Assembly: GCA_011033025.1 (NCBI GenBank)
Contig: WFMF01000036.1
Span: forward strand, 558,001-622,000
Direction of reading: 5' to 3'
Source: Beroe forskalii
Lineage: Eukaryota > Ctenophora > Nuda > Beroida > Beroidae
DNA length: 64,000 nucleotides
Part shown: piece after piece, positions 7,853-63,150 of the stretch
Layout of the letters: the number at the start of each line of letters is the position of its first letter
Numbering within the stretch: position 1 is the stretch's first letter
Made by a program: the position numbers and the translations under genes
The notes under the pieces: model-generated
The model's input: only the letters and a program-made list of their open reading frames with translations
What the model was told of the DNA's origin: nothing
Databases searched by the model: none

Positions 7853-10800
7853 TCAGGACAGTACTACCTCCAGGAGCTTGCTAAAGTCCGGAGTTCCCAT
7901 TCCAGTGACAGGATCCCATCCTTCAGCCACATTATAACCCTCCAAAGGATCAAGCCAACAAGCCTCGCTGTTCGTCCCCGAAGTGATATCGGTAAACGCG
8001 TCTCTGTGCCGGTAAATGAAGGGGTTGAGGAAGCCCAGCACAGGCTTCCCGGCAGCCAGCCGAGCGTCGTTGAGCAGCGCGAAGATGCCGGCCACCGTGG
8101 GAGTGGCGGCAGAGGTTCCGGCTACGTTCATAACGAATCTGTTGATTATAATCCAGAAGTTGTCTGACATCGCTGCAAGGTCAGGGAAGGCTCTTTTGGT
8201 GGCATCGAAGTGTTTGGGGTCTGGGAGCTTGCTTGTGTTCAGGTAATGTGCAACTGATTCTTTCTGAAAATTAAGTTCTATAGAGCGACTATAAATTCCT
8301 TTTTTGAGATACTGATAGATTTGAAAAAATGAAAATCAATAAATTTTCATCCGAATTTAACACGTTTAAGCACGTGCTTAAACATTAAACTCGTGCTTAA
8401 ATTCGGACATAAAGGTATCAGCCCAATTATATTAACTGCTTTGAATTTCAACAATTGAACACTGCAGAGTGCGATTTTTGAAACTCAAATATTTTCACTG
8501 AATAAATTTCGTATCAAAATTCAAAAGCAGTATTTGTTCAGCTTTCAGGGGGAGGGGCCTACGAAGGCCAAGACGGCCCCAGGAGATCTGGACAACAGAT
8601 TCTTTCTGGTATTTGGGCATCTTGAACAGAGCACTGAACCCGCCCCCCGAGATGTCGTTTGCTTGCTCGTTATCGTCACTGAACATGCTCGTGAACCTGG
8701 TGCCGCCCACGGCCGTCACGAAGGGGGAGGTGGCTGGGAACTCTGGCTCAAAAGTCACAGACCCGTCCTCAGATCTGAAATGAAATAAAAGTCACAGACC
8801 CGTCCTCAGATCTGAAATGAAATAAAGGTCACGGACCCGTTCTCAGATCAGAAATGAAGTAAAGGTCAGTGGTCACAGACCCGTCCTCAGATCTGAAATG
8901 AAATAAAGGTCACGGACCGTCCTCAGATCTGAAATGAAATAAAGGTCACAGACCCGTCCTGAGAGATCTGAAATGAAATAAGGGTCACGGAACCGTCCTC
9001 AGAAGTGAAGGTCATGGACCTGTCCTCCGATCTGGAATACCCAGAATAAAGGTCACGGGACCCTCCTTAGATCTGAACATTAAGCAAAGGTCAGGGGACA
9101 GTGAACCCTCCTAAAACCTTAACATTAAGTGAAGGTTAGTGGACAGTGTCCCATCTTCAGATCTGAACATTTCAAGAAAACTTCCATTAAATCTACAGTA
9201 AGAGATGGCTATCACTCCAAATAACGAATGATAGAAAAAGCCCCCCCCCCTGTATACCTGTAGCAGCCGGCACCGCCGTCCCCACTAGCGAAGAGGATGC
9301 TGATACCCCGGACACCAGCCTTCTGGAACTCCTTGTTAATCCGCTGCATGTACTCCACAGAGAGACTCCTCTCATAGTCACCGTAACTCACACTGAGAAC
9401 AGAGGGGGTGTTCTTAAAGTGAAAACAAAGGGGGTCTTCTTACAGGGAAAACGTAGGGGATCTTCTTACAGTGAAAACAAAGGGGATCTTCTTACAGTGA
9501 AAACAAAGGGGATCTTCTTACAGTGAAAACAAAGGGGATCTTCTTACAGTGAAAACAAAAGGGATCTTCTTGCGGTGAAAACAAAGGGGATCTTCTTACA
9601 GTGAAAACAAAGGGGGTCTTCTTGCGGTGAAAACACAGGGGATCTTCTTACAGTGAAAACAAAGGGGGTCTTTTTACGGTGAAATCAAAGGGGATCTTCT
9701 TACAGTGAAAACAAAGGGGGTCTTTTTACGGTGAAATCAAAGGGGATCTTCTTACAGTGAAAACAAAGGGATCTTCTTACACTGAAAACAAAGGGGGGTC
9801 TTCTTGCGGTGAAAACAAAGGGGATCTTCTTACATTGCTGAAAACAAAGGGGATCTTGAAGATGTATGGCACAGTGATGTTACTGCTGAGGTGTAACATT
9901 ACCTGAAGATGTATGGCACAGTGATGTTACTACTGAGGTGTAACATTACCTGAAGATGTATGGCACAGTGATGTTACTGCTGAGGTGTAACATTTCCTGA
10001 AGATGTATGGCACAGTGATGTTACTAATGAGGTGTAACATTACCTAAAGATGTATGGCACAGTGGTGTTACTGCTGAGGTCTAACATTACCTGAAGATGT
10101 ATGGCACAGTGATGTTACTACTGAGGTGTAACATTACCTGAAGATGTATGGCACAGTGATGTTACTGCTGAGGTGTAACATTACCTGAAGATGTATGGCA
10201 CAGTGATGTTACTGCTGAGGTGTAACATTACCTGAAGATGTATGGCACAGTGGTGTTACTGCTGAGGTGTAACATTACCTGAACATGTATGACACAGTGA
10301 TGTTTCTGCTGAGGTGTAACATTACCTGAAGATGTATGGCACAGTGGTGTTACTGCTGAGGTGTAACATTACCTGAAGATGTATGGCACAGTGATGTTAC
10401 TGCTGAGGTGTAACATTACCTGAAGATGTAAGGCACAGTGGTGTTACTACTGAGGTGTAACATTACCTGAAGATGTATGGCACAGTGATGTTACTGCTGA
10501 GGTGTAACATTACCTGAAGATGTATGGCACAGTGATGTTACTACTGAGGTGTAACATTACCTGAAGATGTATGGCACAGTGGTGTTACTACTGAGGTGTA
10601 ACATTACCTGAAGATGTATGGCACAGTGATGTTACTACTAAGGTGTAACATTACCTGAAGATGTATGGCACAGTGGTGTTACTACTGAGGTGTAACATTA
10701 CCTGAAGATGTATGGCACAGTGGTGTTACTGCTGAGGTGTAACATTACCTGAAGATGTATGGCACAGTGATGTTACTACTGAGGTGTAACATTACCTGAA

Positions 10801-13800
10801 GATGTATGGCACAGTGATGTTACAGCTGAGGTGTAACATTACCTGAAGATGTATGGCACAGTGATGTTACTACTGAGGTGTAACATTACCTGAAGATGTA
10901 AGGCACAGTGGTGTTACTACTGAGGTGTAACATTACCTGAAGATGTATCGCCCAGTGATGTTACTACTGAGGTGTAACATTACCTGAAGATGTATGGCAC
11001 AGTGATGTTACTACTGAGGTGTAACATTACCTGAAGATGTATGGCACAGTGATGTTACTACTGAGGTGTAACATTACCTGAAGATGTAAGGCCCAGTGGT
11101 GTTACTACTGAGGTGTAACATTACCTGAAGATGTATCGCCCAGTGATGTTACTGCTGAGGTGTAACATTACCTGAAGATGTATGGCACAGTTGCGTTGCT
11201 GCTGAGGTCAAGCATTACCTGAAGATGTATGGCACAGTGATGTTACTACTGAGGTGTAACATTACCTGAAGATGTATGGCACAGTGATGTTACTACTGAG
11301 GTGTAACATTACCTGAAGATGTAGGGCACAGTTGCGTTACTGCTGAGGTGTAACATTACCTGAAGATGTATCGCCCAGTGATGTTACTACTGAGGTGTAA
11401 CATTACCTGAAGATGTATGGCACAGTTGCGTTGCTGCTGAGGTGTAACATTACCTGAAGATGTATGGCACAGTGATGTTACTACAGAGGTGTAACATTAC
11501 CTGAAGATGTATGGCACAGTGATGTTACTGCTGAGGTGTAACATTACCTAAAGATGTATGGCACAGTGGTGTTACTGCTGAGGTCTAACATTACCTGAAG
11601 ATGTATGGCACAGTTGCGTTGCTGCTGAGGTCAAGCATCCACTCCAGAAATGGCTCCTGTCCTTCGTGCAATCCGCCAGTGCTCCAGAAAGTGGTGGTAA
11701 CGTTAGCTCCCAAAGACATGAGGTATTGTACGTCCAGGTTAGCTTCAAGACCTGTTTTACCGCTGTTAGGCCCGATAACGTGATCCACCTGTGATTTGGT
11801 AGAGGCTTATAAGAGAAGATCAATTGATTGACATAACCACACAAAACAAGAATACGAAAACCAGCGGTTGACATTAATTGAGAGCATTGTTAAGTAATAC
11901 TAATAGCCCATGAGACTATCATTACGATAACAGTCAACTAAATCCTGTGAGATATCAACCTAAAACTTCCCACTAGATCTGCCTTATATTACTAACCGTG
12001 GTCCTGTGAGTGAAGCCCTTGCCGAAGAGGTACATGAACTCCTTCAGGTCTGTGGGGGAGTAGTGCTGTCCGAGGAACTGGGCGGTGGCTTGGGAGTTAT
12101 TGGCACTCTGCCCGCCCACTGAAGCCCCCACGCTGTACTGCTTCCGCAGCGTGTCAGGGTGCACGCCGTACCGGAACGCGTGGTAGCTGTCATCTTCCAG
12201 GGAAAACTGGTTGTTGTCAAGGATACTGCTGTCTTGGGAGTTCAGTGGAATTCTGAGGGGAAGCAGTGGAGGGGTCAAACATGGTGGCGATCTCTTCTCG
12301 ATTGGAGTAAAATATGATGTCAATGTATCTGTGAACTGGTGTCATTGTAAACCGGTGTCAGAGTAAATCGGTGTCAGTGTAAACTGGTGGCATTGTGAAG
12401 TGGTGTCAGTGTAAACTGGTGTCATTTTAAACTGGTGTCTTTGTTAATTGGTGTCAGCGTAAACTGGTGTCAGTGTTAACTGGTGTCATTGTAAACCGGT
12501 GTCTTTGTAAACTGGTGTCAGCGTAAACTGGTGTCAGTGTAAACTGGTGGCATTGTGAACTGGTGTCAGCGTAAACTGGTGCCAGTGTAAACTGATAATG
12601 ATATCATTTGTAAACTGGCGAAAGTGTAAACTGGTGTCAGCGTAAACTGGAGTCAGTGTGAACTGGTGTCATTGTAAACCGGTGTCTTTGTAAACTTGTG
12701 TCAGCGTAAACTGGTGTCAGTGTAAACTGGTTGCATTGCGAACTGGTGTCAGCGTAAACTGGTGTCAGCGTATACTGGTGCCAGTGTAAAGTGATAATGA
12801 TATCATTTGTAAACTGGCGAAAGTGTAAACTGGTGTCAGAGTAAACTGGTTTCAGTGTAAACTGGTGCCAACGTAAACCGGTGCCATTGTGAGCTGGTGT
12901 CTTTGCTAAGTGGTGTCAGCCTTAAGCTAAACTGGTGTCATTGTAAACTGGTGTCAGTGAGAACTGGTGTCAGTGTAAACTGGTGTCTGTGTGAACCGGT
13001 GTCATTGCAAACTGGTGTTAGTGTAAATTGGTGTCATTGCAAACTGCTGTCATTGTGAACTAGTGCCAGTAAAGCAGTTGCTCATCTTACCTTTCCCTAA
13101 CTCTCAGACGCCGTCTCACATCAGGGACCCTGTGAAGACCGCCAATGAAGTCCAGCACTTTACCGACCCTGTAGGGCACGGTATACTCCTTGCTCGCCCT
13201 GATGATGACGTCATCACTGGTGTCGGGGGAGGTGTAGTAACTGAACTCAGTTTCGAGGAGTAACTCAGCTGTCTGAACCAGCATGGAGCACTTGAGGAAG
13301 TCCTCGGTGAGGGGTGAGGAACAGGAGCGGTCAGGGGAGATTCCGTAGCTCCTCAGCCATCTTTTTACCTCCTGCAGAAGAAAAGTGGGGAGATAAAAAT
13401 CTCGTTTTTTCAACTTTTGAGATTCCAAGATTGACCGAAAATTAGGAGCAATGTTTTCCGTTACTTGCCTGAAATATTTTGAAATTTTCATTCATTTTAT
13501 TCATAAAACCTCGGAGATATGCCCATTGTTGTAACGCAAAAAGGTGATCATAAGCAAGATCACATTCCATTTTGTAGAGATAAGCATGATGTTTGTTAAC
13601 TCCTGATTGACGGATTGTGTTTATTTTGCATTTCTTCGTGTATTCTAAAGGAAAATTGACAATTTCGGGCATTTTCAGAAACTGGAGTTGAAATTGATTT
13701 TTTCCCCCGATTCTACGCGGAAATATGGCGGAAATATGGAAATACCGTTTTCTTTGTTAATAACTCAGGCATTTTTCAAGTAAGACAGTTTATAACTCAT

Positions 13801-37484: not shown

Positions 37485-57370
<19,886 letters not shown>

Positions 57371-60462: not shown

Positions 60463-61058
60463 ATTAGCCACCTCGGCCATGAGCGATTTTTTTGGCTAAA
60501 AAATGGGTGGACTTAACTCCGCCGCGGACCCGCTGCGGACCCGGTGGACCCGCTGCGGGTCCGCCGTGGACTCCACTAAAGTCCACCATAATAAATTTTT
60601 TTGGTGGACTTTGGTGACCCGCAGCGGACTTTTCAAACTCCGCCGCGGAGTGGTGGGTCCGCTGCGGTCCGCTCGGGCTCCGCCGCGCACTGGTGGACAG
60701 TCCACCGAAAAAGTCCACCAAAAAGTCCACCAGGAAAAAAAGTCCGCCGTGGATTGAGTCCACCGCGGAGTTTTTGTCCACCGGTGGACTCCCAGGTGGA
60801 CTCCACCAGCGGACTTTGGTCCACTGGCGGAGTCCACAGGTGGAGTCCACCAGCGGAGTCCACAGGTGGATTCCACCAGCGGAGTCCACAGGTGGATTCC
60901 ACCAGCGGAGTCCACAGGTGGAGTCCACAGGTTGAGTCCAACTCCACCAGCAGAGTCCTCTCGCGGATAACATTTTTGGCCCCGAAATTCCATGATTTTA
61001 TGGTGAAATAGCCGTCAAATCGCTCAAAATTTCCATGAATTGCGGACGTCCGCATTAT

Positions 61059-61520
61059 GTCCGATATACCTTATCGGACATAATTATCACGGACTTTAGT
61101 TTCACGGACATAAAACTTCACGGACATTAATATTCACGCTCGATCCAGCCACTTCAAATTTCAAAAATCTTCAAAATTATCGGCTCGATTTCTCCCATTT
61201 TTCCCCACTTGAATGCTTGAATTGGAGATTTTTCAATATTTTTCTTTAATAAATATGATAAATTTCCATATTGCAGGTACTAAGCATTAAAAGAAGCATC
61301 TCTTACAAATTCTATTATTTGCGCATTTCAAGAGAGGAGGTCAGAAATTTTGCGTCTCTACCCTATAAATTTTATGACGAAATGCCGGACTTAATTTTCA
61401 CGGACCTGAATATTACGGACATTAGTATCACGGACAAAATTTTCACGGACATTAATATTCATGCTGAGGTGCTCAGCGTGAATTTAATGTATGTGATAAT
61501 TATGTCCGATAAGGTAAACG
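61059..61520. repeat. Internal inverted repeat with CACGGACAT direct repeats
   Basis: CCTTATCGGACATAATTATC at ~61070-61090 is matched by its complement at ~61493-61513. Between them, short direct repeats of TCACGGACATTAATATTCA recur about eight times in two clusters (61088-61138 and 61390-61465). Confidence 0.75.
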
Positions 61521-61741
61521 GGGCTGAGTGACGTCACAGATCCGAAGGTCAATTTTTCTCTATCCTAAACCTTACGGAGACTCTTACCAAAACCCTTACA
61601 GTTACCTTAATCCTGACCCTAAACCTAACAAATCCTGACCCTAATCCCGACCATAACCTTCAAAGCGCTAGATGCGCTTGATTATATTTTTCTGAGTGAC
61701 GTCATTGTCATGGAAAATGAAGGCTCTCGTTTACATGGGAG
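61514..61741. mobile_element. MITE with degenerate TTAGGG-like core, copy 2 (inverted)
   Basis: Reverse-complement relative of 7061-7295: same TIR words (GTAAACGGGG and CGTTTACATGGGAG), same TGACGTCA blocks near each end, and CCCTAA-like core at 61590-61660. Nested inside the composite element at 60463-63190. Confidence 0.7.
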
Positions 61742-62689
61742 ACGTATTGGCCAGAATCCCCCAGGCCCATCTCAGATTTGGGCTAATATCAACTTTTTGT
61801 TGGTAATTTAATTATCCCCCATTTGTCTTAAAAAGAGGTGTGACATGTTTATTTTGGTCAAATCCTTAATTTCACGTTCGCACCGGACACCTTTTTTCCA
61901 ATTCCAGCTGGAAAAAAGCATTGAAATTACTATTAGGGGTTTCTGGATCGCGGACGTTTGCGACAAGGGGGAGGGAGGGATCTGAAATGGCCAAAATTTT
62001 GCGGACCTCCTTTATGGATGGCCCCCAAGTTGATTTTGAAATATCGATCAAATCTGAGAGGGTCTACTCACCCCTCCCCCCTCGTTGCGACGCCCTTTAT
62101 GGATGGTCCCTTTGAAATATCGACCGAATCTGAGAAAGCTATGTGTACTGCACATGGCACTCCTTTCCAAAAACCATACAGCCCTAATGGCGGAGTCCAC
62201 TGGCAGAGTCCACTGGCAGATTCCACCAGTGGAGTTTACTGGTGGACTCCACCAGCGGAGTCCACTGGCGGAGTCGAGTCCACTGGCGGATTCGAGTCCA
62301 CTGGCGGAGTTGAGTCCACTGGCGGAGTCGAGTCCACCAGTGGACTCCACTGGTGGAGTCCGCCAGTGGACTCGAGTCCACCAGTGGACTCCGCCGGTGG
62401 AGTCCACTGACTCCGCGGCGGACTTACCTCCACAATTATTTTAGTCCACGGTGGACTTTTTTGGTGGACTTTTTCGGTGGACTGTCCACCAGTGCGCCGC
62501 GGAGCCCGAGCGGACCCGCAGCGGACCCACCACTCCGCGGCGGAGTTTCGAAAAGTCCGCTGCGGGTCCACCAAAGTCCACCAAAAAATTTTTATGGTGG
62601 ACTTTAGTGGAGTCCGCGGCGGACCCGCAGCGGGTCCACCGGGTCCGCAGCGGGTCCGCGGCGGAGTTAAGTCCACCCATTTTTTAGCC

Positions 62690-63150
62690 ATTTTTTTTCA
62701 AAATTTTTTCGAAATTTTTTTCACTTTTTTTTTTTTAAATTTACTTTCGTTTTTTTTCCTTTTTTTAACTCAAAAAATTTTGAAATGGTTATTTTTTATT
62801 TTACTTTGGTTTTATTTTGATTTTATTTTGATTTAATTTTGGTTTTACTTTTATTTTGATTTTACTTTCATTTTCATTTCGTTTTCATTTTATTTTCATT
62901 TAATTTTCATTTTAAAATGGTTTTATTTCTATTTTACTTTAGTTTTATTTTGATTTTATTTTGATTTAATTTTGGTTTTACTTTGATTTTGTTTTATTTT
63001 TATTTTCATTTCGTTTTCATTTTATTTTCATTTCATTTTGATTTTTTAAAATTTTCATTTCATTTTTATTTCATTTTCATTTTATTTTCATTTCATTTTG
63101 GTTTTATTTTTATTCTATTTTGATTTTAGGTTGATTTTACTTTGATAACA
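62690..63150. repeat. T-rich low-complexity tract of ATTTT/CATTTT words
   Basis: Poly-T followed by hundreds of bases of TTTTATTTTCATTTCATTTT-type words with a period near 5-6 and longer duplications. Strand-asymmetric, with almost no G or A runs. Confidence 0.9.

Follow-up and report, generated by a model that had tools for sequence, protein, structure and literature searches.

Tandem arrays of splice-border sequence fill TPP1 intron 5 of the ctenophore Beroe forskalii: a probable two-sided boundary minisatellite

The window analysed here is a stretch of 64,000 nt from the ctenophore Beroe forskalii (assembly GCA_011033025.1, contig WFMF01000036.1, positions 558,001 to 622,000 of the forward strand), and coordinates are those of the window unless another locus is named. 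Exons on its minus strand encode tripeptidyl peptidase 1 (TPP1), as indicated by the match to the human enzyme (3ee6, E=9.6e-146) and to Pfam Pro-kuma_activ. The join of exons 5 and 6, VPYIFS/VSYGD, aligns without a gap to human LPHVHT/VSYGD (here and below, a slash marks a splice junction). Intron 5 of this gene, which extends over 2,202 nt from 11594 to 9393 on the minus strand, contains a tandem array at each of its two borders, and a further array lies at the acceptor of intron 6. The features are as follows.

11595..11788, minus strand: TPP1 exon 5, identified by alignment of its translation to human TPP1 3ee6; the 47-nt unit derives from its last 44 nt
9856..11594, minus strand: donor-side array of intron 5, 37 x 47 nt, each unit being GTA plus a copy of the exon 5 end and starting with GTAATG (in one case GAAATG)
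9393..9856, minus strand: acceptor-side array of intron 5, with a 26-nt unit in about 17 copies (repeat list and inspection)
9258..9392, minus strand: TPP1 exon 6 (alignment to human 3ee6, boundaries mapped)
8775..9164, minus strand: acceptor array of intron 6, with 37-nt units like TTTATTTCATTTCAG/ATCTGAGGACGGGTCTGTGAC and more decayed copies further up
8597..8774, minus strand: TPP1 exon 7, source of the intron 6 array (boundaries mapped)

The last base of exon 5 is 11595, where the border reads ATCTTCAG/GTAATG; 37 units of 47 nt follow, which we delimited by cutting at the donor. Tandem Repeats Finder places the array at 9857-11614, with a period of 47, 37.4 copies and 93% matches. The first-pass annotation of this DNA had described about 37 tandem copies of the exon 5 end and its donor, and comparison of the units with the exon bears this out, as unit 9 is made up of GTA and the terminal 44 nt of exon 5 without a mismatch (44/44). 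This identity shows that the duplicated segment comprised 44 exonic plus 3 intronic nt, where about 42 nt of exon end had been proposed, and agrees with the earlier view that the array arose from the junction. The most exon-like units, 9 (44/44), 4 (41) and 6 (39), all lie within the exon-proximal quarter of the array. Over all units, exon-likeness is unrelated to distance from the exon (Spearman rho 0.04, p 0.81, n=37), and the gradient of shared variants claimed at first pass is not recovered. The 37 units comprise 19 distinct sequences; units 1 and 33 are identical, a pattern of typical minisatellite turnover, and unit 1 matches the exon 5 end at 38/44 positions.

GT is present at 35 of the 36 unit-unit junctions (33 CAG/GTAATG and 2 TAG/GTAATG), the remaining one reading CAG/GAAATG, and the intron thus does offer dozens of near-equivalent donors, as had been noted. 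The distal end of unit 37 reads CAA/GATCCC. A 32-nt probe covering the exon 5 donor finds an exact copy (32/32) in the first 1,494 nt of the intron, while the best of 200 dinucleotide shuffles reaches 15. The array unit matches this locus alone in a DNA search of the whole assembly that skips very common words, and the near-identical intron sequence at many loci that characterises introner elements is not seen.

The 26-nt unit on the acceptor side is composed of a polypyrimidine tract, CAC or CAG, and mostly TGTAAG, and the array terminates at the true acceptor TTCTCAG/TGTGAG. The AG is retained in 2 of the 17 copies. With an exon-heavy probe this acceptor is not significant, as 27 of 200 shuffles reach its score. 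The two arrays adjoin at about 9856 and between them cover 2,202 of the 2,202 nt of the intron. In intron 6, the array units copy the acceptor together with the start of exon 7 (probe score 34, shuffle maximum 16). In contrast, a 16-bp array in intron 3 lies away from both junctions and is an ordinary intronic minisatellite. The first-pass annotation did not extend to the acceptor-side array of intron 5, the intron 6 array, or the border arrays in other genes and the amphioxus precedent described below.

At the ends of TPP1 intron 7 (8593-8608 and 8251-8266), the exon 7 end CAGAAAGAATCTGTTG recurs as the exon 8 start CAGAAAGAATCAGTTG. The same intron has a frame-fitting donor, AATCT/GTTGTC, whose use would put three extra residues (KES) in the protein. 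The intron 7 acceptor follows the residue aligned to human Q422, the codon of c.1266, which we take to be the end of a human TPP1 exon. A human variant at this position, c.1266 G>C p.Gln422His, is tabulated (PMC6851559).

Border arrays are also present in other genes, including an MSK-like kinase gene in the same window. In the list below and thereafter, numbers denote introns, D the donor side and A the acceptor side.

46634..46746, minus strand: MSK-like kinase 8D, exon end and donor repeated as 57 nt x 2, the second-copy donor reading CAG/AT
38469..38784, minus strand: MSK-like kinase 9A, 35-nt x 8.7 acceptor array CTTTCAG/GTCCTAAGGAATGTA
Locus L047: donor border duplication, 43 bp x 2.2, probably exon-bearing by inspection; its peptide gives no family match
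Locus L048: acceptor border duplication, 50 bp x 3.2, probable by inspection; its peptide matches Pkinase with E 0.0071, below the cut-off
Locus L050: acceptor border duplication, 50 bp x 2.1, probable by inspection

The exon status at L047, L048 and L050 is weaker than for the genes that were probe-tested. At L048 (6619-6779), the copied GCTAATCCCTCCC, which reads as coding in the last copy, stands where the following copy would have its pyrimidine tract. No exon-bearing border arrays were seen in the repeat lists of L041, L043, L044, L045 and L046 (for L046 also at the array ends), where exons are unmapped.

We tested 42 junction sides with probes against 200 shuffles each (TPP1 14, MSK 20, JNK 5, gelsolin-like 3). 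TPP1 came with the finding itself, and in each of the MSK, JNK, CDK7 and gelsolin-like genes an array had been spotted before mapping; the JNK E5-E6 and gelsolin-like 'a' sides were chosen for their arrays, and the other 40 sides were tested regardless of any array. The probe score is reached by none of the 200 shuffles at seven sides, namely TPP1 5D and 6A, MSK 2A, 8D and 9A, the JNK E5-E6 acceptor and the gelsolin-like acceptor. MSK 2A is a lone weak match of 29 nt and was rejected as an array; the six clear arrays were all known from repeat lists before the probe test. A candidate donor array in JNK intron 2 was likewise rejected, as 175 of 200 shuffles reach its probe score and the signal is mainly a recurring CCAGGT motif.

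The best solved match of the MSK gene is human RPS6KA5/MSK1 (3kn5). The exon downstream of its 35-bp array (38442-38486) contains 15 extra residues near its start when compared with human MSK1, possibly array sequence that has turned into exon. At the innermost JNK acceptor, the junction aligns without a gap to human MAPK9/JNK2, and the gelsolin-like gene matches the gelsolin repeat with E 1.1e-05. In the gene that we take from its sequence to be CDK7 (Pfam match: Pkinase), an acceptor array (42 bp) and a donor array (24 bp) touch the junctions but contain few exon letters.

Read-through past the first donor of TPP1 intron 5 gives R and then TAA, and products with one, two, three or six additional units all contain a stop. 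The frameshift from outer donors, on which the first-pass annotation had placed weight, is moot, since the second codon of the read-through is already a stop. In-frame stops also result from the four upstream acceptors of TPP1 6A and from three at MSK 9A (one to three extra units). As extra units give stops at TPP1 5D, TPP1 6A and MSK 9A, coding stays normal only with the exon-proximal copy, and this copy is presumably the splice site in use.

We built scoring matrices from splice sites of this genome (24 donors, 25 acceptors). The donor CAG/GTAATG scores 6.8, a middling value (13th of 24; real donors 3.0 to 10.9), and its core is common to the real donor and nearly all decoys. Read as an acceptor, CCATACATCTTCAG/G at the end of the unit reaches 10.3 (real acceptors 0.7 to 13.2, leave-one-out). 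The unit borders thus score as usable in both directions. As almost all units open with GT and close with AG, this would suit a stepwise (recursive), self-correcting intron: if an outer donor were used, the leftover k x 47 nt would itself form a GT...AG intron whose exact removal gives the right product. We consider such a mechanism quite unlikely. The branch-site motif YTNAY is absent from the consensus unit (the nearest being TAGTAAC) and present in 22 of 25 real introns at -50 to -12, and 47 nt is very short compared with the shortest of 26 measured introns (97 nt). Moreover, duplication of an AG/GT segment yields the GT...AG closure automatically, and acceptor arrays such as that of intron 6 (CAG/ATCT) exist without such closure.

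The contrast between GT, kept at 35 of 36 junctions of the donor array, and AG, kept in 2 of 17 copies of the acceptor array, could be taken as a sign of selection on the donors. They would then be functional decoys that tune TPP1 output through U1 binding or through degradation driven by stop codons, and every outer donor tested does produce a stop. Against this, the second-copy donor of MSK 8D is mutated, several acceptor decoys in intron 6 and JNK keep their AG, and the homogeneity left by recent turnover accounts for intact GTs without selection. Furthermore, the predicted accessibility that should set the real donor apart from the decoys is unstable: its rank is 1, 10 or 29 of 37 depending on the folding window. 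We regard a regulatory role as very unlikely. Most units can fold a hairpin of GUAAUGUUAC on GUAACAUCAC, and the unit of the real donor does not. Masking of decoy donors by this hairpin was considered and is weakened, as unit 33 is identical to the unit of the real donor and the accessibility ranks vary.

The explanation that we favour, with a probability of roughly 0.8, is that the arrays of TPP1 intron 5 form a two-sided boundary minisatellite, or 'mirage', that is probably tolerated through use of the exon-proximal sites; no function of the arrays is proven. This reading draws on the similar arrays at TPP1 intron 6, at two MSK junctions, at one JNK junction and at one gelsolin-like junction, each with 0/200 shuffles, and on the three probable cases at L047, L048 and L050. 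As the sequence shows, tandem duplication of a 47-nt segment (44 exonic and 3 intronic nt) and subsequent divergence gave the present 37 copies, and a separate segment of 26 nt on the acceptor side is now repeated about 17 times. Expansion may have proceeded by replication slippage or unequal exchange, possibly aided by the unit hairpin, and the original interior of the intron would have been deleted where the two arrays meet. Among the competing sites, the spliceosome would take the donor nearest the exon and the final acceptor, as the resulting exon codes normally and the shortest exon would be preferred under exon definition. Transcripts spliced at outer donors contain a stop and would be degraded.

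Mirages were reportedly first found in an amphioxus Adh gene. They are minisatellites at exon-intron boundaries, described for the amphioxus globins BflGb6 and BflGb9, with Adh3 cited in the same work (PMC3087553), and for PGBD5 (PMC3902484). By the authors' RT-PCR, they seemingly do not disturb splicing (PMC3087553). As in amphioxus, the repeats in Beroe span junctions at donors or acceptors, many units carry AG or GT signals (in intron 5, the donor-array GTs and the few acceptor-array AGs counted above), and one copy is coding. Unlike the amphioxus cases, the host is a ctenophore, and both ends of a single intron are involved over its full length. The copy number also differs, with 37 in TPP1 intron 5 and 6 and 3 in BflGb6 (PMC3087553). 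In the amphioxus globins, the acceptor and donor cases sit in different genes (PMC3087553). In PGBD5, a single gene contains two arrays, which abut the exon 3 and intron 4 donors; since 5' and 3' sites are both mentioned in the paper, the gene is possibly two-sided (PMC3902484).

Tandem arrays are often misassembled, and the amphioxus literature provides examples: a draft contained an aberrantly assembled mirage (PMC3087553), and the copy number in lancelet PGBD5 differs between two assemblies, 2 versus 7 and 3 versus 6 (PMC3902484). An assembly artefact that falsified the length or presence of the TPP1 array is nevertheless extremely improbable, given 19 distinct units in irregular order, an array free of N, borders that coincide with splice sites, and the occurrence on other contigs of unrelated arrays at further junctions.

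The boundary minisatellite can be compared with further known systems. In human genes of segmental duplications, internal tandem repeats have been described where exons meet introns, and altered or new introns have been linked to them (PMC2812944). These are likewise minisatellite-like repeats at boundaries, but they occur in recent primate paralogs with a mean of about 4 units of 30 bp, and the portions of that paper at hand describe no intron made wholly of both borders (PMC2812944). Ordinary intronic minisatellites share the unit size and turnover; the TPP1 unit adds coding exon and a splice site and starts at the junction. Intron gain by tandem duplication is documented for potato RdRp, where duplication of an AG/GT segment makes new GT and AG sites (PMC4974935). 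The TPP1 case resembles it in the tandem duplication of an AG/GT-bearing segment, and in human TPP1 the codon is not interrupted by an intron. In contrast to that case, the 3' end of intron 5 is the 26-bp acceptor array and not a copy of the exon 5 end. Human exon 8 spans c.887-1075 according to variant tables (PMC6851559) and includes codons 312/313, the site of intron 5, so the position of this intron is not common to human. The sequences would be compatible with either gain or loss of the intron.

Within ctenophores, the sections at hand on the Hormiphora genome give 13% tandem repeats and make no mention of border arrays, and none are apparent in the titles and opening lines of abstracts among the other ctenophore papers listed. 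The earthworm intron repeats, as far as the text at hand describes them, are not placed across splice sites (PMC12783039). What is new here is that boundary arrays occur in another phylum and that they make up an entire intron from both of its ends. The term mirage and the cases described under it come from lancelets, and the repeated finding of such arrays in a ctenophore suggests a recurrent mode of intron remodelling. The near-identical competing splice sites (2 to 37 copies) offer a natural series for testing donor and acceptor choice, for example exon definition.

Within 26 introns of TPP1, MSK, JNK and CDK7, 7 of 14 arrays with a reported period of at least 20 touch a junction, compared with 2.7 expected under a rough random-placement model (P 0.002). 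With TPP1 excluded, the count is 5 of 10 (1.3 expected, P 0.001), and for MSK alone it is 2 of 3 (0.6 expected, P about 0.01, hand-worked). Merging drops overlapping arrays, which leaves the 26-bp array of intron 5 uncounted and enters the 16-bp array of intron 3 under a longer period. These P values are too favourable, because the mapped genes were already known to contain arrays, and the data do no more than hint that arrays prefer junctions. A broader interpretation would combine this hint with self-correction: tandem duplication aimed at junctions would rebuild introns from their own splice sites genome-wide, and AG/GT donor arrays would correct themselves, an outer splice being undone by a second. 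We think this combination unlikely.

Several observations weigh against the tolerated boundary minisatellite. The 26-bp array is mostly intronic, with exon homology of only about 6 nt. At MSK 8D, one extra unit keeps the frame without a stop, the donor of the second copy being mutated (AG/AT). Use of the exon-proximal donor is predicted from coding logic, and the 15 extra residues make the true border at the MSK 35-bp array less certain. Finally, plain tolerance leaves unexplained why arrays touch junctions more often than expected, albeit in a biased sample.

Other features were noticed in the window and elsewhere in the assembly. Introns of the MSK-like kinase gene contain a legumain-like single-exon gene (Peptidase_C13, 1.8e-93) at 51978-53381 on the minus strand and a secretin-type 7TM frame (5.6e-10) at 45113-46447 on the plus strand. 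The region 60750-62800 of the window has dense short repeats, rich in palindromes like GTCCACNGGTGGA. Tandem satellites of 171-173 bp are present on two contigs (L044:6418-9296 and L049:8234-10000), and in a kinase gene a 36-bp tandem duplication covers what looks like the stop codon (L021:2270-2346). Open photoprotein frames cluster at G000:C254:149756-154035, close to berovin; one product matches berovin (3.1e-133) and mnemiopsin (9.7e-127), and obelin far more weakly (8.7e-21), as expected of a ctenophore. An amphioxus source was considered and rejected: a GFP family search and a query with a fluorescent protein of lancelet type, run without a positive control, gave no match, and the mitochondrial COX1 also argues against a lancelet. 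In this COX1, on a contig of 13,339 bases, TGA is read as Trp, AGA and AGG stand at presumably conserved arginines, and ATA occurs where isoleucine reads naturally.

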